This document shows positions 11,255-27,429 of a DNA stretch of 64,000 nt, in pieces. The translations under genes and the position numbers were made by a program. The notes under the pieces are model-generated. The model was not told the origin of the DNA. It searched no databases and saw nothing but the letters and a program-made list of their open reading frames with translations. Position 1 is the first letter of the stretch. Every line of letters begins with the position of its first letter. Origin of the DNA: a candidate division FCPU426 bacterium (GTDB lineage: Bacteria; Oederibacteriota; Muellerivitia; Muellerivitales; Muellerivitaceae); contig JASHNQ010000015.1 of assembly GCA_030041545.1 (NCBI GenBank), positions 62,001-126,000 of the forward strand. Direction: 5' to 3'.

Positions 11255-13528
11255 ATGAATAAACTGGTATTGCCGCGCCTGGCCGTCTTGCTGCTATGCC
11301 TTTCCATTTCCTCAAAGGGGTGGCCCTTGGACTCCGATACCCAGCCGGTCTTGCTTCCCATGCCCCTTGAGGCGCAATGGGCCCCGGGAGGCTTCCCCAT
11401 CACGGGGAGTTTGAGCCCCACCCTGGCGGGGGTCAAGGAAGAGCGGGTCGAGGGCGCCCTGAGGCGTTTCATGGACCGTTTGGGGAAAAAAACGGGGATT
11501 TCCTTTTCTGTCGATCTCATCGTCCCTGCGAATTTCGTGATCGATTGCAGGGGCAAGGGCCTTCCCGTGCAGTCCGTTGGCGAGGACGAATCCTACGACC
11601 TCATCGTCACGCCCGGTCAGATCACCCTTTCCGCGCCCAACCCCCTGGGCATCCTCCACGGCCTGGTGACCCTCCGCCAATTGGCGCAAACCGACGGGCA
11701 GGGCTGGTCCTTCCGTTGCGCGGTCATCCACGACAAGCCCCGGTTCCCCTGGCGGGGCCTTTTGATCGACGCCTGCCGCCACTGGATGCCCCTTGACGTC
11801 ATCCTGCGCAACCTCGACGGCATGGAGGAGGCCAAGCTCAACGTGTTCCACTGGCACCTGTCGGATGACCAGGGCTTTAGGATCGAGTGCAAAACCTACC
11901 CGAAGCTGCGGCAAATGGGCTCGGACGGCCATTACTACACCCAGGACCAGGTGCGGCAGGCGCTCTCTTACGCCCGCGACCGCGGCATCCGCGTGGTGCC
12001 GGAGTTCGACATGCCCGGCCACTTCACCTCCTGGCTGGCGGCCTACCTGGAGCTGGCCTCCGCGCCCGGGCCCTATGAGGTGGAGAAAAAATTCGGCGTC
12101 TTCGACCCCTGCCTCAACCCCGCCCAAGAGGAAACCTACCGGTTCCTCGATGGCTTCCTTGGCGAGATGGCCGCCCTTTTCCCGGACGAATACTTCCACA
12201 TCGGCGGGGACGAGGTGAACGGCAAGCACTGGAACCAGAACCCCGCCATCCAGCGCTTTATGTACGCCCACGGCCTCAAGACCAACGAGGACCTGCAGGG
12301 TTATTTCAACGGCCGGGTGGAGAAGATCCTCGCCCATAACCACAAGCGCATGGTGGGCTGGGACGAAATCCTGCGGCCCGGCCTTCCCAAGACCATCGTG
12401 GTGCAGTCCTGGCGCGGCACCGAGGCCCTGGCCCAGGCCGCCCGCCTGGGCTATGACGGCATCCTCTCCAACGGCTATTACCTGGACCTGGCCCATCCCG
12501 CCTCGGCCCACTACGCCGTGGACCCCCTGCCCCAGGCCCTCGCTGGCGGCCAACCCCAAGTTGGCCAGCCGAGTGCCGAAACCGGAGCGGTTTCGGCCCA
12601 ATCCGGTGGGCAAGCTTTGGGTGTGCCGGGGCAAACCGGCCCCGGCCCACTGCCGGAAAATGGCGGCTTGACGCCGCAGGAGGCGGCCCACGTGCTGGGA
12701 GGGGAAGCCTGCATGTGGAGCGAGCTGGTGACGCCGGAGAACGTGGACTCGCGCATCTGGCCCGCCGCCCTGGCCGTGGCCGAGAGGCTCTGGTCGAGCG
12801 CGAGCGTGAGGGACGCGGGCGATTTTTACCGCCGCCTGGATGTGGAAAGCCCGCGGCTGGAGGAAGTCGGCCTCACCCACCGTTCCAGCTACCTGCCCAT
12901 GCTCCGGCGCCTGGCGGGCGGCGCGAACATCGTCCCCTTGGGGATCCTGGCCGACGTGGTGGAGCCCGTGAGGGATTACCAGCGCCACAAGTGGGGCGGT
13001 TATTCCACGGATTTCCCCCTCAACCGCCTGGTGGACGCGGTGAGGCCCGAAAGCGAGGAGGCCCGCCACTTCGGGGCCTCGGTGGACGCTTACTTGGCGG
13101 GAACGGCTTCCCGGGACCGGCGGGGCCTCAAAAGATCCCTGGAGGTCTGGGAGAAAAACCACAAGGCCCTGGAGCCTATCTTGGAGAAATCCGACCTCCT
13201 GGCCGACGCCCTGGGACAGTCCCAGGACCTTTCGGCCTCGGCGCGGGTGGGTTTGGAGGCGCTCCAGTACCTGGACTCCGGCCGCGACGCGCCCCCGGAC
13301 TGGGTGGAAAAAGCCTCCCAAACCCTTTCCCGTGCCTGGGAGCCCAAGGCCCAGGTGCGGATCGCGGTGGTCCCGGCCATCTATAAGCTGGCGCTGGCCG
13401 CGGGGGAGCAGGACCAGCGCAAAGCCCCCGGGGACAAGGGGACCTGCCCTGGGCACCCAGGGGGAGTCGAAGGGTGGGTCAAGGCGCTGGACGCCCAGGT
13501 GCAGGCGGCGCTGAACGGCGGCCCATAG
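11255..13528 (+). CDS. Secreted beta-N-acetylhexosaminidase, glycoside hydrolase family 20
   Basis: 757 residues from ATG 11255; a longer in-frame reading begins inside the preceding terminator and is not used. A signal peptide (MNKLVLPRLAVLLLCLSIS) leads into a GH20b-like N-domain, then the TIM barrel with FHWHLSDDQGFRIE, the catalytic pair D319-E320 in HIGGDEVN, and the late motif GGEACMWSE. It removes terminal GlcNAc/GalNAc by substrate-assisted catalysis, fitting chitin or glycan scavenging outside the cytoplasm. About 40 residues at 430-470 are a Gly/Gln/Pro-rich insert coded by three back-to-back DNA palindromes, just before the GGEACMWSE segment. Confidence 0.95.
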   Translation: MNKLVLPRLAVLLLCLSISSKGWPLDSDTQPVLLPMPLEAQWAPGGFPITGSLSPTLAGVKEERVEGALRRFMDRLGKKTGISFSVDLIVPANFVIDCRGKGLPVQSVGEDESYDLIVTPGQITLSAPNPLGILHGLVTLRQLAQTDGQGWSFRCAVIHDKPRFPWRGLLIDACRHWMPLDVILRNLDGMEEAKLNVFHWHLSDDQGFRIECKTYPKLRQMGSDGHYYTQDQVRQALSYARDRGIRVVPEFDMPGHFTSWLAAYLELASAPGPYEVEKKFGVFDPCLNPAQEETYRFLDGFLGEMAALFPDEYFHIGGDEVNGKHWNQNPAIQRFMYAHGLKTNEDLQGYFNGRVEKILAHNHKRMVGWDEILRPGLPKTIVVQSWRGTEALAQAARLGYDGILSNGYYLDLAHPASAHYAVDPLPQALAGGQPQVGQPSAETGAVSAQSGGQALGVPGQTGPGPLPENGGLTPQEAAHVLGGEACMWSELVTPENVDSRIWPAALAVAERLWSSASVRDAGDFYRRLDVESPRLEEVGLTHRSSYLPMLRRLAGGANIVPLGILADVVEPVRDYQRHKWGGYSTDFPLNRLVDAVRPESEEARHFGASVDAYLAGTASRDRRGLKRSLEVWEKNHKALEPILEKSDLLADALGQSQDLSASARVGLEALQYLDSGRDAPPDWVEKASQTLSRAWEPKAQVRIAVVPAIYKLALAAGEQDQRKAPGDKGTCPGHPGGVEGWVKALDAQVQAALNGGP
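12548..12646. repeat. Three consecutive perfect palindromes inside the GH20 gene
   Basis: 12548-12566: GGCCAAC/GTTGGCC, loop 5. 12575-12597: GCCGAAACCG/CGGTTTCGGC, loop 3. 12625-12646: GCCGGGGC/GCCCCGGC, loop 6. The block is in frame and codes the low-complexity insert of the hexosaminidase. Confidence 0.8.
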
Positions 13529-13553: not shown

Positions 13554-13702
13554 GGGTCAGGCCTATAGAATATACTTATCGGAAAAAGATGGGGGTCCGT
13601 TTGGGGGCGGTCAGCCGCCTTTGTGCCAGCGCCAAGAAGCGGTTGACGCAGGACAAGGCTTTTGCTCAAAGGATCTGAAAGTATATTCTATAGGCCTGAC
13701 CC
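13554..13702 (+). mobile_element. Relic of a REP-associated tyrosine transposase, copy A
   Basis: 24-bp perfect terminal inverted repeats (outer GGGTCAGGCC, inner end AATATACTT) bound 149 bases. The inside still codes KKMGVRLGAVSRLCASAKKR and DKAFAQRI, a C-terminal helix-turn-helix as found in Y1/TnpA_REP transposases. The right repeat supplies the last codons (KYIL, stop) in the ancestral frame; here a TGA precedes them. The catalytic HUH domain is gone, so it is not autonomous. Confidence 0.7.
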
Positions 13703-14924: not shown

Positions 14925-15068
14925 ATGAAACGATTCTTTTTCCTGTTCGCGGGGTTGGTTTTCAACGAAGGAGTGATTCATTTCTTCCGCTTGCAAGAAT
15001 GGAAAACCTCCAGGGGTTGTCCGCGACGGGGAGGCAAAATGGGCCCCGTCAACAAAAGGAAAAAATAG
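14925..15068 (+). CDS. Small hypothetical protein, possibly membrane-associated
   Basis: 47 residues with a hydrophobic start (MKRFFFLFAGLVFN) and a strongly basic tail (MGPVNKRKK). GGAGGG five bases upstream makes translation plausible, and the stop lies one base before the ATG of the VOC gene, so the two may be coupled. No family recognised. Confidence 0.4.
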   Translation: MKRFFFLFAGLVFNEGVIHFFRLQEWKTSRGCPRRGGKMGPVNKRKK

Positions 15069-15069
15069 C

Positions 15070-15513
15070 ATGGCGAAAAATCAACCCAAGGGCAAAAAAG
15101 CGAAACAGAAACAAATGATCATAATCAGCTTGCCAGTAACAAACCTCACGAAGTCGGTAGGTTTTTATCTGGCCATTGGTTTTACCCGGAAATTTTCTGA
15201 CAAGGGTTCAGCCTGTATGGTTCTATCGGACACCATCAGCGTAATGCTGATCACCCATTCAATGTGGAAGGGCTTCACCACGAGGCTAATTCCGGACCCC
15301 AAAAAATCGGCGCAAATGGCCTTGATCCTATCCCGCGATAGCCAGAAAGCGGTCGATGCCATGGTTGAAAAAGGTAAAAAAGCCGGCGGCAAAGCCGACC
15401 CAAACCCCAAAGAAGACTACGGGTTCATGTATGGGCGCAGCCTTGAGGACCCCGATGGCCATATTTGGGAGCCTAAGTGGATGGATAGGGTCCCAATGAT
15501 TAAACAAAGTTAA
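15070..15513 (+). CDS. VOC-superfamily (glyoxalase/bleomycin-resistance fold) protein
   Basis: 147 residues. A Lys-rich N-terminal tail (KGKKAKQKQ) precedes a VOC core: IIISLPVTNLTKSVGFYLAIGF opens the first beta-alpha-beta unit, and YGFMYGRSLEDPDGHIWEP carries the usual closing motif with the metal-ligand Glu. Such proteins include lyases, dioxygenases and drug-binding proteins; the nearest general match is the PhnB/glyoxalase-like group. The substrate cannot be read from sequence. The first 26-bp palindrome of the downstream series begins 16 bases after the stop. Confidence 0.8.
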   Translation: MAKNQPKGKKAKQKQMIIISLPVTNLTKSVGFYLAIGFTRKFSDKGSACMVLSDTISVMLITHSMWKGFTTRLIPDPKKSAQMALILSRDSQKAVDAMVEKGKKAGGKADPNPKEDYGFMYGRSLEDPDGHIWEPKWMDRVPMIKQS

Positions 15514-15528
15514 ATTTGCGTTCGTGTT

Positions 15529-15554
15529 GTCCACGACGGGGACCCATCGTGGAC
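15529..15554 (+). repeat. 26-bp array palindrome R1
   Basis: Left arm GTCCACGACGGG, centre GA, right arm CCCATCGTGGAC (one mismatch). It lies 16 bases after the VOC stop. The remaining bases to 15773 show no gene. Confidence 0.9.
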
Positions 15555-15773
15555 AGGAGCAATCGAAGGAAGTACAACCCCGTATACGGCGGAATGGATA
15601 TAAATGAATTTCAGAACGGTCAAAGAAATTAAATACGGAGCTTTAGGAATAGGTCACCAGGCAATATCGCCGGATAAAGTCATCTAGGAAATTCCGGTTT
15701 AAAGGAAAAAAATAAGGCCCACTCGGATCGCCCCAGCGTCTAAATCCCGAGCACCTTTATTTCAGGCGGGACC

Positions 15774-16508
15774 ATGAAAAACATCCTCCGAATCCTGCGG
15801 CCTTGCCTTTTCGGGTTTTTGGGCCTGGCGGCAAGCTACATCTTGTTGATCTGCTTTCCCCAGCCGCTTTTTGCCTATAGCCATACTTGGAACAACCTGA
15901 CCCTTTATTGCGACGACCCCATTCCGCCCCAGGCCGACCAGGTGCTCCAGGACGCGCAACGCCGCCTGGGCAGGAGCCCCTTTTACGCGAATAAACCGCA
16001 CGAGAACATCTTCCTCTGCAACCATATCTGGCGTTACCGACTTTTGTTCGCGGCCAACGAAAACGCCAAAGGGTTTGCCTATTTATTCGCCCCTTGGAAT
16101 GTCTTTCTTGGAAAGGCCGATATATCGGAAAATGTCCTTTTCCGGAAAGACGGCCGGACCCCTTCGGGCCCGGCCCGGCCGCTTTCCTATTTTCTTGCCC
16201 ATGAGATTACCCACAACCTGACCAACCGGTTCCTGGGACCCTGGGCCCAATGGCGCCTACCGGTTTGGAAGAGGGAAGGCTATGCCGATTACATCGGCAA
16301 GGGCGGCGACTTCGACTTTAAGAAAAACCTAGCGCTTTTCAAAAAAGGGGACCCTTTGCTGGACCCGCATGCCTCGGGACTTTACCTGCGCTACCAACTG
16401 CTGGTGGCCTATCTACTGGAAAAGAAGGGACTGACGGCGCCGCAGCTTTTGACCGGTTCTTTTGACCAGGCCGCGCTTGAAAAAGAGATCCGGAGCCTCC
16501 CGGATTGA
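15774..16508 (+). CDS. Signal-anchored gluzincin-type metallopeptidase-like protein
   Basis: 244 residues. The N-terminus is a long hydrophobic segment (LFGFLGLAASYILLICFPQ), probably a membrane anchor. In the centre HEITHN fits HExxH and is followed 20-25 residues later by WKREGYADYIG, where Glu is the expected third zinc ligand of gluzincins. It resembles short membrane-tethered peptidase-like proteins of unknown substrate. The last codon overlaps the TTG start of a broken GNAT gene by four bases, so the two once formed an operon. Confidence 0.7.
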   Translation: MKNILRILRPCLFGFLGLAASYILLICFPQPLFAYSHTWNNLTLYCDDPIPPQADQVLQDAQRRLGRSPFYANKPHENIFLCNHIWRYRLLFAANENAKGFAYLFAPWNVFLGKADISENVLFRKDGRTPSGPARPLSYFLAHEITHNLTNRFLGPWAQWRLPVWKREGYADYIGKGGDFDFKKNLALFKKGDPLLDPHASGLYLRYQLLVAYLLEKKGLTAPQLLTGSFDQAALEKEIRSLPD

Positions 16509-16639
16509 ACAGCCCACTTCACATCAGGCCCGGGGTGGCCGCGGACATCCCCCGCCTTTCCAAGGCCTACGCCGAATCCTGGAGGAGCACCTACCAGGGA
16601 ATGACGCCGGAAGTTTTGGTGAAGGGCATCACCGCTTAA
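16505..16639 (+). pseudogene. Truncated GNAT acetyltransferase, N-terminal fragment
   Basis: TTG 16505 overlaps the preceding stop and reads 44 residues (HIRPGVAADIPRLSKAYAES, then WRSTYQGMTP), a classic first beta-strand and helix of a GNAT domain. A TAA then stops it. The following 90 bases still look like mutated coding sequence. The acetyl-CoA binding motif is absent, so no enzyme can be made. Confidence 0.65.
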
Positions 16640-16820
16640 TACTCGTTTGGGACCATGAGGACCGCTTGGCCTGGGTCCACCACCAGGTAGAATTTTCATC
16701 GGCCTTCCGGGAAATCCGTGATTAAACATACAAATTCCAAAAGATATCTCCCGAACCGGTGAAGAATACCAATATCCTGAAAAATTTTCGTTCGTTGAAG
16801 GCTGAAAAGCCTCGGACGGC

Positions 16821-16846
16821 GTCCACGGCGGGGACCCATCGTGGAC
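16821..16846 (+). repeat. 26-bp array palindrome R2
   Basis: GTCCACGGCGGG-GA-CCCATCGTGGAC, with two arm mismatches. It lies between the GNAT remnant and the PIN operon. The rest of the 16640-17048 gap shows only the promoter noted next. Confidence 0.85.
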
Positions 16847-17012
16847 AATCAGTAGTTCTGATTATTTGTTCAGGAAATATTTTCCGGGGACCTTTGGGAC
16901 TTTCGCCCAAAGTTTTTGAGGACCGGTGGTTTGCGCTTCCCGCTTTAAGGTTTTCTTTTCTACTCGAGTAGTGACTTAACCATGGCACAAACTTGGGGAC
17001 GGCCGGTCAAAG

Positions 17013-17048
17013 TATTTAAATTTTAGTGATATCACCTATAATATCATC
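17013..17048 (+). promoter_or_regulatory. Promoter and operator of the PIN/RHH module, apparently leaderless
   Basis: A perfect TATAAT at 17037-17042 ends six bases before the ATG, so transcription should start at the A of the start codon. No Shine-Dalgarno is present. TTTAAA 16 bases upstream is a weak -35. The perfect palindrome GTGATATCAC (17026-17035) abuts the -10 and is a natural site for the RHH antitoxin. Confidence 0.6.
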
Positions 17049-17474
17049 ATGAAAGCGCATGGAACCGTCCTTGATACCAATGTCATTGTGGCGGCCATGC
17101 GATCCAAGCGGGGGGCCTCTAATCGCCTTCTGGGGCTGTTTGCCAGGGGAAAACTTCAAGCGCATATTTCGGTGCCCCTGGTCCTGGAATATGAATCGGT
17201 TTTGAGGAGACAGGCGAAAACTTTAGGTCTTTCGCAATCGGAAGTCTCGGAATTTGTGAATTTTATTTGCCGTGGCGGGAAGAAACAAGATATCCATTTC
17301 ATGTGGCGGCCCACCTTGAAGGACCCCAATGATGACATGATCCTGGAACTCGCGGTGGCGTCTGGCGCGGACTTGGTGACTTTCAACGTTCGGGATTTTC
17401 TCGGGGCCGAACGGTTTGGAGTGCGGGTTTTTGAGCCAGGAACCTACCTGAAAAGAATGGAGGAAAGACTATGA
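17049..17474 (+). CDS. PIN-domain ribonuclease toxin
   Basis: 141 residues with PIN-domain acidic residues: D9 in VLDTNV, E48 in PLVLEYESV, the pair in DPNDDMILELA near 95, and the Asp of VTFNVRDF near 115. This is the pattern of the 'putative toxin-antitoxin system toxin component, PIN family' group, metal-dependent RNases that cut tRNA or mRNA. It overlaps the RHH antitoxin gene by four bases (ATGA), with the toxin first. The promoter arrangement suggests a leaderless mRNA repressed by the antitoxin. Confidence 0.9.
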   Translation: MKAHGTVLDTNVIVAAMRSKRGASNRLLGLFARGKLQAHISVPLVLEYESVLRRQAKTLGLSQSEVSEFVNFICRGGKKQDIHFMWRPTLKDPNDDMILELAVASGADLVTFNVRDFLGAERFGVRVFEPGTYLKRMEERL

Positions 17475-17713
17475 GTGCTGTTAGTTTAAGATTGCCGGAT
17501 TCGCTTCATGAATCCATAAAGAAAATGGCCCAGCAGGAGCACGTTTCCGTCAACCAACTCATTACCTTGGCTGTGGCCGAGAAATTGTCCGCACTGATGA
17601 CCTCGGATTACCTGCAAAAACGCGGGGCCAAGGGGAATCGCGATCGCTTTCTTAAGATTCTGGCGAAAGCCAAGGATGAAGAACCTGATCCGAAGGACCG
17701 GCGTTCCAGATAA
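17471..17713 (+). CDS. Ribbon-helix-helix antitoxin, partner of the PIN toxin
   Basis: 80 residues. SAVSLRLPDSLHESIKKMA followed by EHVSVNQLITLAVAEKL is an Arc/HicB-like RHH domain: one beta strand and two helices that bind DNA as a dimer. The C-terminal tail (FLKILAKAKDEEPDPKD) would wrap the toxin. It overlaps the toxin stop by four bases. The tail ends ten bases before the transposase relic at 17724, so the relic lies immediately downstream without breaking the module. Confidence 0.88.
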   Translation: MSAVSLRLPDSLHESIKKMAQQEHVSVNQLITLAVAEKLSALMTSDYLQKRGAKGNRDRFLKILAKAKDEEPDPKDRRSR

Positions 17714-17723
17714 AAGGATAAAA

Positions 17724-17898
17724 GGGTCAGGCCTATAGAATATACTTAAAGAATCGGGCTTAAGCCTGAAAGAGATCGGGAAAAAGATGGGGTCAGTTGG
17801 GGGCGGTCAGCCGCCTTTGTGCCAGCGCCAAGAAGCGGTTGACGAAGGACAAGGCTTTTGCTCAAAGGGTCTTTAAGTACATTCTATAGGCCTGACCC
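17724..17898 (+). mobile_element. Relic of a REP-associated tyrosine transposase, copy B
   Basis: 175 bases with the same 24-bp terminal inverted repeats as copy A (one mismatch on the right). It keeps more coding sequence: LKESGLSLKEIGKKMG, then after a one-base loss in a G run GAVSRLCASAKKRLTKDKAF and AQRVFKYIL with a stop inside the right repeat. This shows the terminal repeat formed the 3' end of the transposase gene. Confidence 0.72.
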
Positions 17899-17904
17899 CT
17901 TTGT

Positions 17905-18032
17905 GTGAGGCCGAGGCGGAATGTATCGCCAAGCTGGTCCTGGAAGGGTTCAGCTTTGCCTGCAACTCGCCTTCCCCGAAGGATGCCTTGAACATGGCCT
18001 TCAAGACCCTCAAGAACGGCTGGAATAAATAA
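17905..18032 (+). pseudogene. 3' end of an unknown gene cut by the transposase relic
   Basis: An open frame without a start begins at the right edge of the relic and reads EAECIAKLVLEGFSFACN, then KDALNMAFKTLKNGWNK and a stop. Composition is protein-like and helical. No family recognised. The monooxygenase gene begins 33 bases later. Confidence 0.35.
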
Positions 18033-18065
18033 CCCTTTTAATATGAGTAGTACGGAGAATAAACC

Positions 18066-19538
18066 ATGAAGACTGAACCCTCACGGTGCGACGTTTTGAT
18101 TTGTGGGGCCGGTCCGGCCGGGTTAGTGTTGGCCATCGACCTCGCGAGAAGGGGGGTATCGGCGCGCCTTGTGGAGAAGCTTGACCGACCCTTCACCGGC
18201 TCCCGTGGGAAAGGCATCCAGCCCCGCACCCAGGAGATTTTTGAGGACCTTGGCGTGATCGACCATATCATTGCCCGCGGCGCCGAGTACCCGCCGCAGA
18301 GGTTCTATTCCGCTGACGGGCGCTTCCACGACGAATCCATGGTCGAACCTTTCGAGGTGACCGCTGAAGAGCCCTACCACCTTGCCCTGGTGATTCCGCA
18401 ATCCACGACCGAAGGTGTGCTTCGCGCGAAACTCCTCGAATACGGCCGGGCACCCGAGTTTGCCAAGGAGTTGACAGACTTTACGCAAGACGCAGGGGGC
18501 GTCCAGGCGACCTTGCGCACCCCGCAGGGCCTGGAAACCGTCCAGGCAAGTTACCTGGTTGGATGCGATGGCGGCCGGAGCTTCGTGCGGCACCACCTGG
18601 GGATCGACTTTCCGGGCAAATCGCTCGGCATCCGCGCGCTTACCGCCGATGTCCGTGTGCCGGGCCTATCGCGCGAGGTGGGGCACCGCTGGAACGACGG
18701 CGACATGACGGCCCAAGTCGGCTTTGATCCCCTGGCCGGGTCGGACTTGTTCTGCTTGCAGGTGCCGGTTCCGCTGGAGGGCGATGTGGATTTGAGCGCG
18801 AAAAACCTAACCGCCCTCGTGCGCCAGCGCACCGGACAGGCTTTGACGATCACGGACGTCGAATGGTCTTCGGTCTTCGTCATGGGCGCGCGTTTGGCGG
18901 CGAAGTACCGGGTGGGGCGCGTGTTTCTTTGTGGGGATGCGGCGCACGTCCATCCGCCGACAGGGGGACAGGGGCTCAATACCAGCGTTCAAGACGCTTA
19001 CAACCTCGGCTGGAAGCTGGCCCGGGCCCTGGAAAGGGGCGACGAAGAGATCTTGGCGACCTATGAGGAAGAGCGGCGTCCCATTGCCGAGTCAATGCTG
19101 GGGCTTTCGCAGACAATCCTGGACAAGGAAAAGGAACAAGGGGGGAGAAAGCGGGGCCGTGAAGTGCTTCAACTGGACTTAAGCTATGCTGGCTCTTCGA
19201 TCACGGTGACGGAGCCGGCCAACCGCCCCCTCGCCGCCGGTGACCGTGCGCCGGACGCGCCCTTTACGACGGCAGCCGGCCTGCCAAAGAGGCTGTTCGA
19301 CGTGTTCCGGGGGCCCCATTCCACTCTGCTCGCGTTCGAGCCCTCGATCGAATTGAAGCCGTTGGTCGGGGGTCAGGTCTATCGCATAGGAGAGCACGGG
19401 GAAATTCGGGACACTCAGGGTGCGATCGCCCGATCCTACGGGCTCGCAAAGGGCGATCTCGTACTGATTCGCCCCGACGGATATATTGGGGCCATTGTCC
19501 CGGAATCGAGTTTCGAGAGGCTGAGTCCGCTGACATGA
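18066..19538 (+). CDS. FAD-dependent aromatic-hydroxylase-type monooxygenase
   Basis: 490 residues of the PheA/TfdB class (group A flavoprotein hydroxylases). The dinucleotide motif GAGPAGL lies at 14-20 with acidic E37 at the end of strand 2 (ARLVEKLDRP). The DG motif is in VGCDGGRSFVR near 165. The second FAD motif CGDAAHVHPPTGGQGLN is near 290. The C-terminal 90 residues (about 390-490) form the thioredoxin-like domain found in phenol hydroxylases and in rifampicin/tetracycline-modifying relatives. Substrate unknown. GGAGAA precedes the ATG, and palindrome R3 starts two bases after the stop. Confidence 0.92.
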   Translation: MKTEPSRCDVLICGAGPAGLVLAIDLARRGVSARLVEKLDRPFTGSRGKGIQPRTQEIFEDLGVIDHIIARGAEYPPQRFYSADGRFHDESMVEPFEVTAEEPYHLALVIPQSTTEGVLRAKLLEYGRAPEFAKELTDFTQDAGGVQATLRTPQGLETVQASYLVGCDGGRSFVRHHLGIDFPGKSLGIRALTADVRVPGLSREVGHRWNDGDMTAQVGFDPLAGSDLFCLQVPVPLEGDVDLSAKNLTALVRQRTGQALTITDVEWSSVFVMGARLAAKYRVGRVFLCGDAAHVHPPTGGQGLNTSVQDAYNLGWKLARALERGDEEILATYEEERRPIAESMLGLSQTILDKEKEQGGRKRGREVLQLDLSYAGSSITVTEPANRPLAAGDRAPDAPFTTAAGLPKRLFDVFRGPHSTLLAFEPSIELKPLVGGQVYRIGEHGEIRDTQGAIARSYGLAKGDLVLIRPDGYIGAIVPESSFERLSPLT

Positions 19539-19539
19539 A

Positions 19540-19565
19540 GTCCACGACGGGGACCCGTCGTGGAC
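19540..19565 (+). repeat. 26-bp array palindrome R3
   Basis: Perfect 12-bp arms (GTCCACGACGGG and inverse) around GA, starting two bases after the monooxygenase stop. Confidence 0.92.
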
Positions 19566-19577
19566 AGGGGGGCAATA

Positions 19578-19613
19578 TTGCATTGTAACTACATTGTAGT
19601 GTATCCTTAAAAC
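19578..19613 (+). promoter_or_regulatory. Promoter and operator of the first BrnT/BrnA module, apparently leaderless
   Basis: TTGCAT (19578-19583), 18-base spacer, TATCCT (19602-19607), then six bases to the ATG. The perfect palindrome ACTACATTGTAGT (19588-19600) lies between the two hexamers, a fitting BrnA operator. There is no Shine-Dalgarno. Confidence 0.5.
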
Positions 19614-19886
19614 ATGCTCGTCATTTGGGATCCCCAGAAAGCCACTTTCAATCAAAGAAAGCACGGGGTTTCATTTGAGGAGTCCCAATCGGTCTTGAAA
19701 TCCGACGTTCAGTTGGTGCTGGAAGACAGGGAGCACAACGAACAAAGATTCGTCGTGCTTGGGTACTCCAAGAAACTAAACCTATTGGTGGTGGTTTACG
19801 CTTACCGGGATGTGGATGTGATTCGAATCATCTCGGCCAGGAAAGCCACGCGAAAGGAACGGGAAAACTATGAAAAAAGAATATGA
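19614..19886 (+). CDS. brnT: BrnT-family ribonuclease toxin (first copy)
   Basis: 90 residues with the BrnT signature from end to end: WDPQKATFNQRKHGVSFEES, a variable strand, RFVVLGYSKKLNLLVVVYAY, and IRIISARKATRKERENYEK. BrnT is a RelE-fold RNase that inhibits translation under stress. Its gene precedes and overlaps brnA by 17 bases, the standard order. The start codon coincides with the predicted transcription start. Confidence 0.95.
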   Translation: MLVIWDPQKATFNQRKHGVSFEESQSVLKSDVQLVLEDREHNEQRFVVLGYSKKLNLLVVVYAYRDVDVIRIISARKATRKERENYEKRI

Positions 19887-20127
19887 CTTTTCAAAAGCTA
19901 AGGTTCATCGAGGCTCTCTCCTGGCTTCCAAAGGCTCGAAGATTCAGAAAACCTTCCGGTTGGATGAGTCGGTTTATCATTGGCTTATCGAGGAAGGCAA
20001 AAAACAGGGAATACCCTATCAAACTCTGATGAACTCTATCTTAAAACGCTCAATGTCCGGTCATTCAACCCTCGAAGAACGGGTCCGGAAAATCGAGAAC
20101 AAATTGGGACTGAGGAAGACCGGATAA
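19870..20127 (+). CDS. brnA: BrnA-family antitoxin (first copy)
   Basis: 85 residues. The N-terminus MKKEYDFSKAK is the typical toxin-binding start of BrnA. The core KIQKTFRLDESVYHWLIEEG and GIPYQTLMNSILKR is a ribbon-helix-helix DNA-binding domain. A short C-terminal helix (EERVRKIENKLGL) may mediate pairing. It should autorepress from the palindrome at 19588. Confidence 0.92.
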   Translation: MKKEYDFSKAKVHRGSLLASKGSKIQKTFRLDESVYHWLIEEGKKQGIPYQTLMNSILKRSMSGHSTLEERVRKIENKLGLRKTG

Positions 20128-20165
20128 AAAGCCCGAGTGTTTTGGTTTTTTGGGTCGAAAGGTTT

Positions 20166-20191
20166 GTCCACGACGGGGACCCGTCGTGGAC
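20166..20191 (+). repeat. 26-bp array palindrome R4
   Basis: Perfect 12-bp arms around GA, extended on both sides by TTT/AAA to 15-bp arms. It lies 39 bases after the first brnA. Confidence 0.92.
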
Positions 20192-20250
20192 AAAGAATTA
20201 TGGATAATGAGTTCTGGCCCCGATTTTTGTGAAAAAGGATACGATCAAGG

Positions 20251-20556
20251 ATGGAGCCTATAACGCCGGTCTATGAATTCGAATGGGACCCGGAAAAAGC
20301 CAAGGGAAACCTCCGAAAGCACGGTGTAGCGTTTGAAGAATCGGCGACTGTTTTTCTCGATTCACGGGCAGTGTCGGTATACGATACAGAGCATAGCGCG
20401 GGGGAAGACCGTTGGATCACGCTAGGATTGGCTTCAACGGGACGGGCCCTGGTTGTCTGCCATACCTTTCGGGAGATCAGGCGCAATCGGATTGTTGTGC
20501 GTATATTTTCAAGCCGGAAAGCGACCCGGAAGGAGCGTAAAGCCTATGGGGGATAA
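20251..20556 (+). CDS. brnT: BrnT-family ribonuclease toxin (second copy)
   Basis: 101 residues: YEFEWDPEKAKGNLRKHGVA, FEESATVFLD, TEHSAGEDRWITLGLASTG and RIFSSRKATRKERKAYGG cover the BrnT domain. It is only about half identical to the first copy, so the two modules are not a recent duplication. Upstream, TACGAT (20240-20245) ends five bases before the ATG and could be a -10 for a leaderless message; the evidence is weaker than for the other modules. Confidence 0.94.
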   Translation: MEPITPVYEFEWDPEKAKGNLRKHGVAFEESATVFLDSRAVSVYDTEHSAGEDRWITLGLASTGRALVVCHTFREIRRNRIVVRIFSSRKATRKERKAYGG

Positions 20557-20560
20557 TCGC

Positions 20561-20764
20561 ATGAAAAGAGAATACGATTTTTCAAAGGGAAAAAGGGGAA
20601 AGTTTCACCGGCCGAATGCCCGTTTGAGCCTTCCCGTCTATCTCGACGCCGACGCGTTGGCTTTTGTCCAAAAGATCGCCAGAAATAAAGGCACCGACAT
20701 CTCCAGCGTCGCCAGCCAACTCATTCTTACCGACAAACGGCTCGCCGAAATGGCGGGTGGTTGA
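20561..20764 (+). CDS. brnA: BrnA-like antitoxin (second copy)
   Basis: 67 residues from ATG 20561, four bases after the toxin stop and preceded by GGGGGA. MKREYDFSKGKRGKF matches the BrnA start; the following LSLPVYLDADALAFVQKIA and GTDISSVASQLI form a ribbon-helix-helix domain. It is shorter than copy one, lacking the C-terminal helix. Confidence 0.85.
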   Translation: MKREYDFSKGKRGKFHRPNARLSLPVYLDADALAFVQKIARNKGTDISSVASQLILTDKRLAEMAGG

Positions 20765-20888
20765 AACTTTATTCCCAAAAGCGCGGAAGCTGATCCGCAC
20801 TCAATTGCCATAGGGTTCCAAAAAATAAACTCCCCATATTGATAACTTCAACGTTCCAAAATTAAAAATCATTTTCAAAGGGGTGGTT

Positions 20889-20914
20889 GTCCACGATGGG
20901 GACCCGTCGTGGAC
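20889..20914 (+). repeat. 26-bp array palindrome R5
   Basis: GTCCACGATGGG-GA-CCCGTCGTGGAC, one mismatch, flanked by TT/AA. It lies between the second brnA and the barrel gene. Confidence 0.9.
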
Positions 20915-20972
20915 AAATATTTCCGAAAAAAATAAAAGAGCCGAAAATATTTTCTTTTTAAGGAGAAATAGA

Positions 20973-21752
20973 ATGGGAACAAATCCTCTGAAGAAGTTTT
21001 TTCCGGTGATCCTATTTTGCTTGGCGGTGGCGAAGGTTCAGGCACAGGACACGGCCCCGGTTGTTTCGACGACGCCAACAGTCGTGGTCACGCCTTCGGT
21101 GACTCCGGATGCGGAAAAACCCTTAAGCTTGGCGGGAAGGTTCGGAATAGGCTCCGATAGTATCCGCTTGGACGAAGACCAATTAAATACGGTAAGTATA
21201 AGTATAAACACGATAAGTTTGACAGCATTGGATGCCACTTATTGGCTGTCGAATGGGTCGGCCTTGGATTTCCTTGGGGCTTTTTCCGCTTCGGACAACC
21301 CTAACTTCGATTTCAACGGCAATACCACCAACTATCCTAACCAAACCTGGGGGATAGGATTGGGTTACCGGCAAAATCTCTCGACGCCTATCAGGGATTT
21401 CAGGATTCAAGGCTTGCTCCGGGCCTCGTACGCTCAGTATAAAAATGACCAACTCATTTGGTGGAATACTCAAACGGGCGTCGGCTATGACGTTCAAACC
21501 CAATTTTCTGAAACCATCCTTTTTTCGGCGGGTTTGGGCTTTGAATTTTTTGCGCCCTTTTGTGAATCCCTTTCGCTGCAATCCAACCTTGCCTACTCCA
21601 TCAGCCAAAACGACGGTTGGGTGACTCAGACCTTTAACGCTCCTTTAACGCCGGGCTACAAGAATTTCACCAGTACTTATTCTTATGTGCGGTCCGGTTT
21701 AGTTTTGAGCGGACTTTCCTTGAGCACGCTCTCAGTCCATTTCTATTTCTAA
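20973..21752 (+). CDS. Outer-membrane beta-barrel protein
   Basis: 259 residues from ATG 20973, with AAGGAG seven bases upstream. A signal peptide ends VAKVQAQ; a Thr/Val/Pro stalk (VVSTTPTVVVTPSVTP) precedes about 200 residues of alternating strands (ALDATYWLSNGSALDFLGAF, TWGIGLGYRQ, ILFSAGLGFEFF), ending LSVHFYF with the terminal aromatic expected by the BAM machinery. Probably an 8- or 10-strand barrel of unknown role. An in-frame extension would begin inside palindrome R5 and is not used. Confidence 0.75.
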   Translation: MGTNPLKKFFPVILFCLAVAKVQAQDTAPVVSTTPTVVVTPSVTPDAEKPLSLAGRFGIGSDSIRLDEDQLNTVSISINTISLTALDATYWLSNGSALDFLGAFSASDNPNFDFNGNTTNYPNQTWGIGLGYRQNLSTPIRDFRIQGLLRASYAQYKNDQLIWWNTQTGVGYDVQTQFSETILFSAGLGFEFFAPFCESLSLQSNLAYSISQNDGWVTQTFNAPLTPGYKNFTSTYSYVRSGLVLSGLSLSTLSVHFYF

Positions 21753-21762
21753 CGCGGGCGTT

Positions 21763-22863
21763 TTGGTTCGTCGAAAAGACGGCGAAGGAATAACGGGGAA
21801 AAGAGCTGTCCACGACGGGGAGGGTTTTATCTCACGGGGAACATCGAAATCCAAACCTGCTCCGGTCATTATCTCCGCGCCTTCCCCGGAGTTCCTGGCC
21901 GGCTGGGCCCGGAAGAATTACGGCCTAAGCCGTAACACACGCTGTTTCTTTTGGTTCCATGGCCTGAACCTTGTTTACCACATCCATGATGGTCCTAAAA
22001 AATACGCGTTGAAGATATACCGCCCTTGGTGGCGCACAGCCGAACAAGTGGATTACGAATTGAAGGAATGCATATTCCTTAGGAAATCAGGCATTCCGAT
22101 TTGCGTCCCCCTGCCGACCCAAAAGGAGGCCTATTTCTCGCCCTTGAACCTTCCGGATGAAGTGGCGACCGCCGTCCTGTTCACCTTCGCTGAGGGGGAG
22201 AACCGGCAAGACCCCATGGTTCCATTGGCCCGGAAGGTCGGAAGACTGCTGGCCCGGCTTCACCAGGCCCAGGACCGGTTTTTCGCGGTTCCACCCAGCC
22301 CGCCCATGGAGCCGGAGCTTTTAACCAGCGAGCAGGTGAAAAAACTGGAGCCTTACCGATCCAGTTTCGGAAGGGACTGGCCCTTGCTGAAAAAGGCGTC
22401 GGTTCGCCTCAAAAGGGAGCTGGCCCGCCTGCCCCGCAGGGGTCCCGCCTATGGCTTAATCCATGGGGACGTACACTACGGCAATATGCGCTACGACCTT
22501 TCCAAGAGAAATTTCGTCCTCTTCGACCTGGAACTTACGGTTATTGGATGGCGCCTTTATGATGTCGCCACATTTTTATGGGATCTGTGGGACGACAGTC
22601 CCGCCTTCAGCCGCGCCGAAAAGCGGCAAGGGACCAAGGCTTTTATAAGATCCTACTCGGACCTGCGTCCCATGAGTCCGGTTGAGATAAAAGCGATCCC
22701 GACCATGATGGCGGCCCGCCAACTGCACTGGATGGGCGCGCAGGCGGATTATGCCCCGAGGTTATCGGGCATCCTGGTTAGCCCGGAAAGACACCGCCAA
22801 AAGATGAAGTTCCTAAAAAGCTGGATGTCGGGCGAATTGACTAAAATGGTTTTGGGTCGATAA
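21763..22863 (+). CDS. APH/CotH-type kinase-fold phosphotransferase
   Basis: Up to 366 residues. KKYALKIYRP supplies the ATP-contacting Lys, GLIHGDVHYGNMR (H about 234) the Brenner-type catalytic loop, and VLFDLE the metal-binding Asp. This is the aminoglycoside-phosphotransferase superfamily, near SrkA/homoserine-kinase-like stress kinases; substrates range from antibiotics to proteins and sugars. The start is unclear: only TTG 21763 is available before residue 80, and the next 30 residues are coded partly by half-palindrome R6, so the true N-terminus may have been altered by that insertion. Palindrome R7 begins ten bases after the stop. Confidence 0.8.
   Translation: MVRRKDGEGITGKRAVHDGEGFISRGTSKSKPAPVIISAPSPEFLAGWARKNYGLSRNTRCFFWFHGLNLVYHIHDGPKKYALKIYRPWWRTAEQVDYELKECIFLRKSGIPICVPLPTQKEAYFSPLNLPDEVATAVLFTFAEGENRQDPMVPLARKVGRLLARLHQAQDRFFAVPPSPPMEPELLTSEQVKKLEPYRSSFGRDWPLLKKASVRLKRELARLPRRGPAYGLIHGDVHYGNMRYDLSKRNFVLFDLELTVIGWRLYDVATFLWDLWDDSPAFSRAEKRQGTKAFIRSYSDLRPMSPVEIKAIPTMMAARQLHWMGAQADYAPRLSGILVSPERHRQKMKFLKSWMSGELTKMVLGR
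21808..21821 (+). repeat. Half-copy of the array palindrome, R6
   Basis: Left arm and centre only (GTCCACGACGGGGA); the right arm is replaced. It lies inside the 5' part of the kinase-like frame. Confidence 0.7.
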
Positions 22864-22872
22864 CAAAGGGTT

Positions 22873-22890
22873 GTCCACGACGGGGACCCA
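22873..22890 (+). repeat. Partial copy of the array palindrome, R7
   Basis: GTCCACGACGGGGACCCA is intact, then the sequence diverges (ATTTTAGACCC). It starts ten bases after the kinase stop. Confidence 0.75.
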
Positions 22891-22945
22891 ATTTTAGACC
22901 CAGATGTGTGAACTTTTAAAAACTGTTTAACTCCGGAGATGCGCG

Positions 22946-23686
22946 ATGGAGACAACGCGTTCGGAAATTTTCCAAAAAGCCTGGGATGAGGTATCGGACC
23001 CGCCACCAAGGCGCATTCGTTTGCGGCCTTTGGGTGAGGTAAAGGCGCTTTGGATAATCATTTTCTTTTCGTTCCTCGGCGACCTCCTAATTTTGTGCTA
23101 CTCGATATTTTGGCTTCAGGGCCCCTATTTCTCGGCGCAATACGGCCATCCAGTCCAAGGCACAATTGAAAAGCTCTCCACTTACACAACAAAGGGCGTT
23201 CCGCATTACGTGGTGCATCTTGGGTATGATTACCAAGGTAGCCATTACGAGGGAAAAAGCGACAACGTGGGCAACTTGCCAACCGACCTTTCAGTGGGGC
23301 AAACGGTGCCGATTCATTGTCTTGCTGGGTTCATGTCCACTCCCGCCTTAGATGCCCACCCGCCCCACGACTATAGCCTTGTTTTTTACTTCTTTCCGGT
23401 TCACTTCATCGCGCTTCTTCTTGTTTTTCTGATATTGAGCACCCGGCGCTTGTTGAAACTCGGAAAGGCCTATGTGGGCCGCATTGAGGACCCAAGGAAT
23501 GCCAAGGGGGGACGGGTAATCGTGGACGGGAAAGAGTACCCCGTTACCATTCCTACCCGGGGCTATGATAAAAGTTACTTTGTGCCGGAAAAGGACTCGA
23601 AGATCATTGTGTTGGTCGACCCGAAGGACCCCTTGAAGAATCGCATTTATATGCCGACGAGCTGTTTTTATGTTCCGGAGAAGTAA
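22946..23686 (+). CDS. DUF3592-like membrane protein
   Basis: 246 residues. Two membrane helices at about 35-53 and 148-166 enclose an extracytoplasmic beta domain with the pattern HPVQGTIEKLSTYTTKGVPH, YVVHLGYDYQGSHYEG, VGQTVPIHC, the layout of DUF3592 proteins. The soluble C-terminal part (RVIVDGKEYPV, ILVDPKDPLKNRIY) is a second small beta domain. Function unknown. It forms one gene unit of the palindrome-punctuated segment. Confidence 0.65.
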   Translation: METTRSEIFQKAWDEVSDPPPRRIRLRPLGEVKALWIIIFFSFLGDLLILCYSIFWLQGPYFSAQYGHPVQGTIEKLSTYTTKGVPHYVVHLGYDYQGSHYEGKSDNVGNLPTDLSVGQTVPIHCLAGFMSTPALDAHPPHDYSLVFYFFPVHFIALLLVFLILSTRRLLKLGKAYVGRIEDPRNAKGGRVIVDGKEYPVTIPTRGYDKSYFVPEKDSKIIVLVDPKDPLKNRIYMPTSCFYVPEK

Positions 23687-23727
23687 AGTAAAAGAATTGG
23701 GCTGACCCCGTGGTTTTTGAGTTCTGT

Positions 23728-23744
23728 GTCCACAACGGGGACCC
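23728..23744 (+). repeat. Partial copy of the array palindrome, R8
   Basis: GTCCACAACGGGGACCC, one change, then divergence. It is the last member seen on the right. Confidence 0.65.
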
Positions 23745-24498: not shown

Positions 24499-25488
24499 AT
24501 GAAAAAAATACTGGTCATTTTGGCGCTGTCGGCCGGGGCCCTGTGGCCGCTGGCCTGCGGAAAAAACCTGCCCACGGGCGCATCCACCGGGACACCCACG
24601 ATCACGCCGACCCCGACCGTCACCCCCTATCCGGGTTCGATTTGGACGGCCCAAACCCTCCCCAGTTCACAGGACTGGCAATCCGTGGCCTATGGAAACG
24701 GGGTGTTTGTGGCGGTTTCTTATGATAGCGCGGCGGCGGCAACCTCACCGGACGGGATCCATTGGACCCAGCAAACCCTCCCCAGTACACAGTTCTGGTC
24801 ATCCGTGACCTATGGGAATGGGATATTTGTGGCGGTTGCCAGTGGACTAACCACCGTGGGGGCGACATCGCCGGACGGGATCCATTGGACCCAGCAAGCC
24901 CTCCCCAGTCTACAGTACTGGATATCGGTGACTTGCGCGGATGGCGAGTTTGTGGCGATTGCTGAGGATAGCTCGGCAGCGGCAACCTCACCGGACGGGG
25001 TTACCTGGACGGCCCGCACCCTCCCCAATTCACAGACCTGGGCTTCAGTAGCCTACGGAAATGGTGTGTTTGTGGCGGTTGCCAACAGTAGTTCCGGTAC
25101 TGGGGCGGCGGCAACCTCACCGGACGGCGTCACCTGGACGAGCCGCAACCTCCCCAGCGCACAGGACTGGCAATCCGTGGCCTACGGGAACGGTGTGTTT
25201 TCGGTGGTTGCTAATGGCAGCGCGACGGCGGCAACCTCCCCGAACGGGACCACCTGGACAGCCCAAACCCTCCCCAGTTCACAGCAATGGTATTCGGTGG
25301 CCTACGGGAATGGGGTGTTCGCGGCGGTTGCCGCGGATAGCGCGGTGGCGGCGACCTCCCCGGACGGGATCAATTGGACGGCCCGCGCCCTCCCCAGTTC
25401 ACAGAACTGGTATTCAGTGGCCTATGGGAATGGGGTGTTCGCGGCGGTTGCTGCGGGGCCAAGCACGCTGGCGGCCACATCCTGGTAA
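24499..25488 (+). CDS. Seven-bladed beta-propeller lipoprotein, paralogue 1
   Basis: 329 residues, GGGGAGG upstream. The signal peptide ends ALWPLACGKN (lipidated Cys), followed by a Thr/Pro stalk. Then come exactly seven repeats of about 41 residues with the consensus G..WTA.TLPSSQ.W.SVAYGNGVFVAVA..S..AATSPD. Seven blades fit a closed propeller; the repeats are related to those in sialidase/WD-like 'SPDG.NWT' proteins. The chain ends right after blade seven (AATSW). The blades are near-identical at DNA level, implying recent amplification or gene conversion. Ligand unknown. Confidence 0.8.
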   Translation: MKKILVILALSAGALWPLACGKNLPTGASTGTPTITPTPTVTPYPGSIWTAQTLPSSQDWQSVAYGNGVFVAVSYDSAAAATSPDGIHWTQQTLPSTQFWSSVTYGNGIFVAVASGLTTVGATSPDGIHWTQQALPSLQYWISVTCADGEFVAIAEDSSAAATSPDGVTWTARTLPNSQTWASVAYGNGVFVAVANSSSGTGAAATSPDGVTWTSRNLPSAQDWQSVAYGNGVFSVVANGSATAATSPNGTTWTAQTLPSSQQWYSVAYGNGVFAAVAADSAVAATSPDGINWTARALPSSQNWYSVAYGNGVFAAVAAGPSTLAATSW

Positions 25489-25493
25489 TCCGG

Positions 25494-25590
25494 CCTTTAG
25501 CATTCCATTAACCGGGCCGGGTTTGAGCCATTGCAACGGGGCAAAAACAAAAGTAGAATTTGCCAAATTCCCGGCGGGAAATTCATGAAA
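25494..25590 (+). promoter_or_regulatory. Second copy of the duplicated leader and promoter
   Basis: TTGCAA (25531-25536), 17 bases, TAGAAT (25554-25559), then the conserved segment to the ATG at 25585. The spacer differs from the first copy while the hexamers are unchanged. Confidence 0.65.
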
Positions 25591-26610
25591 AAAATAGCAC
25601 TGATGATGATTTTATTCTCGGCGGCCCTGTGGCCCTTGGCCTGCGGGAAAAACCTGCCGACGGCCAATGGGCCGGTGACGGTGGTGCAGGTGCCGCCCAC
25701 GGCCAGCATCACGCCCAGCACCCCCACCCAAACCCCGACGGTCACTGTCACTCCTTGGCCGGGTGCGGCCTGGACAGCCCAAACCCTCCCCAGTTCACAG
25801 GATTGGTTTTCGGTGACCTACGGGAATGGGGAGTTTGTGGCGATTTCCGGCGGGCCCAGCACGGTTGCGGCGACATCGCCGGACGGGGTCAACTGGACGG
25901 CCCGAACCCTCCCCAGTTCGCAGTTTTGGTATTCAGTGGCCTACGGGAATGGGGAGTTTGTGGCGATTGCTTACCTTAGTTCGGTGGCGGCGACATCCCC
26001 GGATGGGATCAACTGGACGCCGCGCACGCTCCCTTATACACAGGAATGGCGGTCCGTGACCTACGCGGATGGGGTTTTTGTGGCGGTCGCGCAAGGGCCC
26101 ACCTCGATAGCGGCCACATCCCCGGACGGGATTAATTGGACGGCCCAAACCCTCCCTAGTTCACAGGATTGGAATTCCGTGACCTACGGCAATGGGGTGT
26201 TTGTGGCGGTTGCCGTTGGTCCCAGCACGGTGGCGGCGACGTCCCCGGATAGTGTCACCTGGACGGGCCAACCCCTCCCCAGTTCACAGGATTGGAATTC
26301 CGTAACCTACGGGAATGGCGAGTTTGTGGCGGTTGCTTTAAACAGTGCGACGGCGGCGACTTCGCCGGACGGGATCAATTGGACGGCCCGCGCCCTCCCC
26401 AGTGCGCAGGAATGGAATTCAGTGGCCTACGGGAACGGCATTTTTGCGGCGGTTGCTTTTGCCAGTGCCGTGGCCGCGACCTCGCCGGACGGGATCAATT
26501 GGACGGGCCGCACTTTGCCCAGTACACAGAATTGGACATCCGTGACCTACGGGAACGGGGTATTTGTGGCGGTTCCGGATGGTGGCATAACGGCGGCGAC
26601 ATCCTGGTAA
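25585..26610 (+). CDS. Seven-bladed beta-propeller lipoprotein, paralogue 2
   Basis: 341 residues from ATG 25585. The signal peptide (LFSAALWPLACGKNLPT) is nearly that of paralogue 1. The stalk (TASITPSTPTQTPTVTVTP) is longer. Seven blades follow with the same consensus, again ending AATSW. Since the blades are interchangeable between the two genes and the promoter block is shared with the barrel gene at 23908, this cluster arose by local duplication and recombination. Probably cell-surface or periplasmic, role unknown. Confidence 0.8.
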   Translation: MKKIALMMILFSAALWPLACGKNLPTANGPVTVVQVPPTASITPSTPTQTPTVTVTPWPGAAWTAQTLPSSQDWFSVTYGNGEFVAISGGPSTVAATSPDGVNWTARTLPSSQFWYSVAYGNGEFVAIAYLSSVAATSPDGINWTPRTLPYTQEWRSVTYADGVFVAVAQGPTSIAATSPDGINWTAQTLPSSQDWNSVTYGNGVFVAVAVGPSTVAATSPDSVTWTGQPLPSSQDWNSVTYGNGEFVAVALNSATAATSPDGINWTARALPSAQEWNSVAYGNGIFAAVAFASAVAATSPDGINWTGRTLPSTQNWTSVTYGNGVFVAVPDGGITAATSW

Positions 26611-26646
26611 TCCGGCCCTTCGTGTAGCCCTGCCTCCAACAAAAAC

Positions 26647-26826: not shown

Positions 26827-27429
26827 ATGATGAATTGGACTAGGAAATGCCTGGCCTTTCTTCTTATAGTGGCGGCCATGAGCCCCGCCGCCCAAGCCAA
26901 ACCTAAGACCGAGACCGCCACCTTCGCGGGCGGCTGTTTCTGGTGCATGACCCCGCCCTTCGAGAAGCTGACGGGCGTCTTGAGGGTCGTGGCCGGCTAC
27001 ACCGACGGCACCGGGCCCGACCCCACCTACGAGGATTACGGGGACAAGGGTTACACCGAGGGCGTGCAGGTGATCTACGACCCCTCCAAGGTCACCTACG
27101 CCCAGCTGGTGGACGTGTTCTGGCGGCAGATCAACCCCACCGACCCCAACGGCCAGTTCGTGGACCGGGGGCCCCACTACCGCGCGGCCATTTATTACCA
27201 CGACGCGGGGCAGGAAAAAATCGCCGAGAAGTCCAAGGAGGAGTTGGGCAAGTCCGGCCGCTTCGACAAGCCCATCGTGGTGCCCGTCAAGAAGTTCGTG
27301 AATTTTTACCCGGCCGAGGACTACCACCAGGACTACTACAAGAAGAACCCCATCCATTACGGGATGTACCACATGGGATCGGGCCGCGACCAGTACCTGG
27401 ATTCGGTCTGGGGCCAGGGAAACCACTAG
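26827..27429 (+). CDS. msrA: Peptide methionine sulfoxide reductase MsrA, exported form
   Basis: 200 residues, GGAG six bases upstream of the ATG. The core has the MsrA active-site segment ATFAGGCFWCM with catalytic C37, GVLRVVAGYTDG, YEDYGDKGYTEGVQVIYDP, and FYPAEDYHQDYY. It reduces the S-epimer of methionine sulfoxide using thioredoxin-type reductants. Residues 1-24 form a Sec signal peptide (LLIVAAMSPAAQA), so the enzyme acts outside the cytoplasm and needs an envelope reductant. No MsrB is adjacent. Confidence 0.95.
   Translation: MMNWTRKCLAFLLIVAAMSPAAQAKPKTETATFAGGCFWCMTPPFEKLTGVLRVVAGYTDGTGPDPTYEDYGDKGYTEGVQVIYDPSKVTYAQLVDVFWRQINPTDPNGQFVDRGPHYRAAIYYHDAGQEKIAEKSKEELGKSGRFDKPIVVPVKKFVNFYPAEDYHQDYYKKNPIHYGMYHMGSGRDQYLDSVWGQGNH

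Follow-up and report, generated by a model that had tools for sequence, protein, structure and literature searches.

A palindrome-bounded array of probable gene cassettes in a candidate division FCPU426 bacterium

The window, the whole stretch of DNA analysed here, comprises 64,000 nucleotides (C49:62001-126000) of a 3.8-Mb MAG in 115 contigs, from an uncultured soil bacterium of candidate division FCPU426. This genome is referred to as G000 and its contigs by C-numbers alone, while G001-G008 denote relatives; one genome per species was compared. Between 15018 and 23744 the window holds nine copies of a 28-bp palindromic site, TGTCCACGACGGGGACCCGTCGTGGACA, all on the plus strand. Five copies are full and begin at 15528, 16820, 19539, 20165 and 20888. 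The four that consist of the left arm only begin at 15018 (degenerate), 21807, 22872 and 23727. An earlier note on this DNA had listed eight copies, five full and three left-half; those eight were recovered, and the degenerate ninth at 15018 had been missed. The sites alternate with genes as follows.

15018..15045, plus strand: degenerate site, left arm only (TGTCCGCGACGGGGAGGC), the first of the array
15033..15542, plus strand: cassette 1, VOC/glyoxalase-like gene (15070-15513); limits drawn from GGGGA^CCC to GGGGA
15528..15555, plus strand: full site, 15 bp 3' of the VOC stop
15543..16834, plus strand: cassette 2, 244-aa protein without a Pfam match (15774-16508) and a short remnant
16820..16847, plus strand: full site, left arm CGTCCACGGC
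16835..19553, plus strand: unit 3, PIN toxin and RHH antitoxin (17049-17713), RAYT relic, FAD monooxygenase (18066-19538)
19539..19566, plus strand: full site, immediately 3' of the monooxygenase stop
19554..20179, plus strand: cassette 4, BrnT/BrnA
20165..20192, plus strand: full site, perfect palindrome that folds on both strands
20180..20902, plus strand: cassette 5, second BrnT-type pair (20251-20764); homologous unit in C77 (89%)
20888..20915, plus strand: full site, left arm GAT
20903..21821, plus strand: cassette 6, exported 259-aa protein without a Pfam match (20973-21752)
21807..21824, plus strand: left-arm-only site, without a fold
21822..22886, plus strand: cassette 7, APH-type kinase (ORF 21763-22863, start likely internal)
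22872..22889, plus strand: left-arm-only site, without a fold
22887..23741, plus strand: cassette 8, DUF3592-like gene (22946-23686)
23727..23744, plus strand: left-arm-only site, the last of the array

The window cassettes thus encode VOC, PIN, FAD monooxygenase, BrnT/BrnA, APH-like kinase and DUF3592-like proteins. Unit 3 is possibly two fused units, and its 5' end resembles cassettes in C32, C25, C45, C47 and G003. All window sites read GGGGA on the plus strand and lie 3' of co-directional genes, in agreement with the earlier description of a GA centre that always points the same way as the genes. The distances from stop codon to site reported there (16, 2, 39, 10 and 42 bases) agree with ours within 1-2 bases, and, as also stated, no copy with a GGGGA centre occurs in the window outside the array. 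A GGGGA centre was an entry condition in site collection, and its invariance is therefore no evidence. Beyond the window, C49 carries two more sites, at 47467 and 49635, on the minus strand.

The constant part of the site is its left arm, TGTCCACGACGGGGA; the right arm is variable, and in about 28 of 171 sites a recognisable right arm is missing, which counts against the cassette model. When the half-site GTCCACGACGGG was searched with at most two mismatches, 29 matches were obtained in the window, as compared to a mean of 8.97 and a maximum of 16 in shuffled sequence, and a reversed control pattern gave no match in any genome scanned. The palindrome series is therefore not a product of chance.

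Approximately 65 sites were found in G000, on C25, C32, C43-C45, C47, C49, C53, C60, C77, C83, C112 and a few other contigs. Exact sites occurred in 9 of 98 genomes (G000, seven others of the same family and one of a sister family) and in none of the other 89. In a scan of a wider collection, a supporting right arm was present only on FCPU426 contigs among the matches listed and checked, and the non-FCPU426 matches among those listed were near chance expectation. A viral scan gave six matches, none with a right arm, and no site match was found in plasmid and phage collections. Within nearly every contig the sites are co-oriented, the exceptions being G002 C349, C83 and C49; on the latter two, separate groups of sites face opposite ways. 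A solitary site between opposite-strand genes (C83:5372) counts against the cassette model.

Site sets differed among the analyses, with 167 sites in the logo and flank comparisons, 171 in the right-arm count and 172, from fetched loci, in the neighbour statistics; cassette genes were called by our own script in the fetched loci. In this last set 152 of 162 upstream neighbours shared the strand of the site, the median stop-to-site distance was 29 bp and the median site spacing was 897 bp. Of the genes between sites, 107 of 112 had the same strand as the sites, versus 116 of 160 control genes. The genome-wide check of orientation that the earlier note had proposed thus showed palindromes that are clustered, fixed in orientation and placed at gene 3' ends. 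The 101 cassette proteins include PIN (10) and BrnT (5) toxins, VapB/BrnA/CopG antitoxins, TPR proteins and hydrolases.

An all-against-all comparison of the array contigs of nine genomes revealed homologous stretches bounded by sites at both ends. Examples are C47 versus G003 C17 (1943 bp, 80%), G003 C47 versus C4 (1029 bp, 91%), and C77 versus G003 C2 (699 bp) and versus G003 C50 (839 bp). The BrnT/BrnA unit of the window has homologues in C25 (652 bp, 93%), G003 C11 (85%) and G002 C320, with different neighbours in all of them, and families f1 and f2 share, at 94.6% identity, a two-gene nucleotidyltransferase/HEPN-like unit with a site at its end. Of the 40 alignments that were 250 bp or longer, 21 had an end that coincided with a site in both partners, compared with 0.3% by random placement; some of the other 19 are group II introns. 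Among the 167 sites, 19 pairs had a homologous flank upstream and 39 downstream, but none of the 58 had both. Some of the 39 represent copies of an intron and not of a cassette; the zero is unaffected by this. Since no pair is homologous on both flanks, every shared unit has new neighbours.

The position of the breakpoint could be narrowed from the same pairs. In downstream-only pairs, identity rises above background from about position 18 of the site, in the right arm, and left-arm positions 8-9 are unshared; in upstream-only pairs, positions 18-19 are at background identity. C43 and C53 agree in the right arm and in 179 bases downstream and differ at position 9; G003 C2:112 and C64:86 agree in the left arm and in 85 bases upstream and differ from position 18 onwards. 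These two pairs, G003 C11/C17 and the pooled profile support a breakpoint in positions 10-17. Flank profiles and sharpest pairs therefore place the exchange within GGGGACCC, the centre of the palindrome, so that each cassette has as its own the right arm at its front and the left arm at its rear. The right arm AAAAGGAACA, for instance, accompanies one downstream cassette in three G003 contigs. A contig with the remainder of the cassette duplicated in C43 and C53 was not found in the MAG.

Group II introns (Rfam RF02003, RF00029) lie directly after the palindrome foot TGGACA in C90, G003 C42 and G004 C387, and sequence likeness indicates the same foot insertion in C77 and C29. In two genera an intron sits inside the site itself (G003 C40, L239:6093-8045; C44, L037:836-1640), and the interpretation of these two loci as arrays inserted in native DNA was rejected on that account. 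In G003 C40, TTGTCCACGATG is followed by an intron with a reverse transcriptase (376 bits to TIGR04416) and then by GGGACCCATCGTGGACAA; the two halves joined give a canonical site. Both kinds of insertion argue, independently, for the palindrome as a stable landmark that recurs. Group IIC-attC introns target the attC hairpins of integrons, usually against the cassette direction (PMC7923331), whereas the RT-encoding intron here runs with the cassettes.

Loci with and without an array were also compared. The C60 array sits between gmhB and rfaE2, two genes that overlap in the congener G001. Its edges, CAAAATGGGAACCCGTCGTGGACA on the left and TTGACGGGGAGCTCATGG on the right, suggest insertion at a short GGGGA-like target. 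The window array is flanked by conserved genes, one for a 757-aa protein (11255-13528) and msrA (near 26863); in G003 and G007 these are separated by two other genes, and the region is not among the site matches of those genomes. Simple insertion into native DNA does not account for the first sites of C53, G6C19 and G1C192, each of which follows a gene that looks native and already possesses a good left arm. The earlier note had offered a cassette array as one of two readings, and the exchange of gene-plus-palindrome units between arrays and genera, together with array loci that lack an array in relatives, supports that reading.

As judged from these sequence comparisons, the window region is very probably one of about a dozen mobile gene cassette arrays in G000, with units moved by site-specific recombination. 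A given cassette recurs in separate arrays and in more than one genus, beside unrelated neighbours and almost always in site orientation, and the switch of neighbours falls inside GGGGACCC. A cassette would consist of a gene or a toxin-antitoxin pair, with the palindrome's right half (CCC-NNNN-TGGACA) at its start and the left half (TGTCCACGAC-GGGGA) at its end, just 3' of the stop codon. A trans-acting, site-specific recombinase would excise cassettes as circles carrying one whole site, and the circles would insert at other sites in direct orientation, with crossover in the central bases. Occasional insertion may take place at a plain GGGGA-like target, as at the gmhB/rfaE2 locus. The orientation would be set by the asymmetry of the site, whose left arm is strong, right arm loose and GA centre fixed.

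No recombinase linked to an array was found in the arrays examined. The TIGR02249 profile for IntI reached at best 79 bits in nine genomes, against a cut-off of 265. For serine recombinases, PF00239 had no match in G000, G002, G004, G005 or G007, and its matches in G001, G003, G006 and G008 were off the array contigs. IS110/DEDD enzymes, with two matches in G000 and none in five relatives including G003, were rejected, as was a recombinase trio of G003 C16 and G006 C19 that was not seen in G000. Integrases of about 370 aa (MSKPNVHGLPQ...) are present in several copies per FCPU426 genome (at L044, L046, L047 and L048, and at loci in relatives); the tRNA-like 3' ends that lie shortly downstream give them the appearance of tRNA-integrating elements, and they too were rejected. 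The host Xer was set aside because it has its own, different 28-bp dif-like palindrome beside its gene. A single host xer gene is preceded by this 28-bp palindrome, with a TATAA-N6-TTATA core, in C101 (L276), G003 C90 (L277) and G006 C3 (L281). The palindrome is probably the dif of FCPU426, and no resemblance to the cassette site was found in the three genomes.

The cassette enzyme is most likely a tyrosine recombinase. With the other candidates eliminated, the best lead is a tandem XerC/D-like pair on C26, which also occurs, with a primase-like gene, in a mobile element at an RHS locus in G003 and G006 (L260 on C26, L261 on G003 C97, L262 on G006 C3). Two of these three loci have iterated repeats of about 150 bp and a TGTCCGACAGTCGGACA-type palindrome upstream. 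It is a rather doubtful but conceivable proposal that the two proteins, in the way that XerD and XerC occupy a 28-bp dif site, bind one each of the two unequal arms of the cassette site and act in trans. Both members match the XerC/XerD families, and the remaining classes of recombinase are either missing or associated with different sites. A strong and a weak arm in a 28-bp site are typical of dif (PMC6449649) and would suit a two-protein Xer system. The palindrome upstream of the pair in C26, TGTCCGACAGTCGGACA, has the same outer five bases as the cassette site, and that of C97 has one mismatch. One copy of the pair is present in each of the genomes G000, G003 and G006, and G000 and G003 are the most site-rich of all. 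No copy was found in G001, G005 or G007, each with a few sites, or in the incomplete G002 and G004, so that its distribution fits that of the sites only loosely. Moreover, the sequence out to 13-15 kb from the pair is free of cassette sites, and the pair seems part of another element with its own iterated repeats, primase-like gene and RHS locus.

A different explanation of the palindrome is a conserved terminator or RNA-processing hairpin, with the genes shuffled by ordinary homologous recombination. Full sites fold strongly on both strands and place a strong hairpin about 29 bp after stop codons, which speaks for it. It is nevertheless very unlikely. The sites have no T-tract and drew no terminator-like call, consistent with the absence of a T-run described earlier; the sequence hardly varies between unrelated genes or between genera; the right arm is passed on together with the gene that follows it; and 28 bp is very short for homologous recombination. 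Left-arm-only copies have no fold, yet they bound the same kind of unit. The arms of one cassette were not clearly better paired than shuffled arms, and thus there was no sign of folding conserved over sequence. This weakly favours a site read as double-strand sequence rather than in an attC-like folded form.

It is highly improbable that these are true integron cassettes (CALIN) with unusual attC sites and IntI encoded elsewhere. The layout, orientation, content, intron targeting and unit exchange are as in integrons: in both, promoter-poor or toxin-antitoxin cassettes form one-orientation arrays with one palindromic site just 3' of the gene, units pass from one array or species to another, the site is a target of group II introns, and the content is TA-rich, as it is in chromosomal integrons. 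However, integron membership failed already on the features tested. No IntI exceeded the cut-off in the nine genomes, and the logo of 167 sites shows a 28-bp site without the RYYYAAC/GTTRRRY (R/L) boxes, in keeping with the earlier statement that no integrase or attC consensus was visible. Crossover falls at the site centre, not at the hairpin foot or R' box, and the left-arm-only sites do not fold. The many arrays at separate loci of one genome, and an RT-encoding intron that runs in the cassette direction, are further differences. We filed the FCPU426 arrays as working like an integron without being one.

The least credible reading, and the one that the earlier note preferred because of a RAYT relic within the series (present at 17797-17886), takes the palindromes for REP/REPIN-type elements of a RAYT transposase inserted 3' of genes; short palindromes in many copies per genome, in gaps after genes and near RAYT relics, speak for it, but here the sites are clustered in arrays of uniform orientation, the genes belong to the moving unit and are exchanged whole with breakpoints at the palindrome centre, which REPs do not do, none of the 13 Y1 transposase matches in G000 is inside an array, and RAYT occurs in the arrays as relics that go with a different inverted repeat, GGGGTCAGGCCTATAGAATATAC, at 17720-17902. 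RAYT C-terminal relics were seen in the window at 13583-13690 and 17797-17886, and a longer broken RAYT in C60 (L031:19035-19802).

The arrays were also compared with two other known systems. The dif (pdif) modules of Acinetobacter plasmids, which use XerC/XerD, likewise have a 28-bp site with a conserved and a looser arm around a short centre, and are rich in toxin-antitoxin genes. They differ in that the cassette site is unrelated to the host's own putative dif, that the arrays here are chromosomal and of one orientation, and that there was no evidence of the host Xer acting on the site. In the shufflon (Rci, sfx sites), too, one arm and the centre are conserved and the other arm is variable; shufflons invert segments at one locus, whereas the sites here are direct repeats and the units move between loci and genera.

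On balance we lean towards a gene-cassette capture system apart from integrons, in which the centre of a 28-bp palindrome would be recombined by a dedicated two-protein Xer-like recombinase or other enzyme, and which would extend across one family of an uncultured phylum and have its own site-specific group II introns. No account of this system was found in the open-access papers searched on FCPU426 with integrons and on cassette arrays outside integrons. The textbook example of swapping cassettes one gene at a time is the integron, and what is described here looks like a second, unnamed bacterial route for exchanging genes as cassettes. If this second array system is unrelated, the cassette mode of gene exchange arose more than once in evolution; it would also explain the trade of toxin-antitoxin and accessory genes among uncultured soil bacteria and would offer a short direct-orientation recombination site. 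With a short site and few candidate enzymes, the system is testable.

Two minor features were noted. Within the C60 cassette array lies an IS21-like istA/istB pair, named from its sequence (L031:9510-11830). In the window, self-alignments showed internal repeats of about 120 bp in two adjoining putative lipoprotein genes at approximately 24500-26620.
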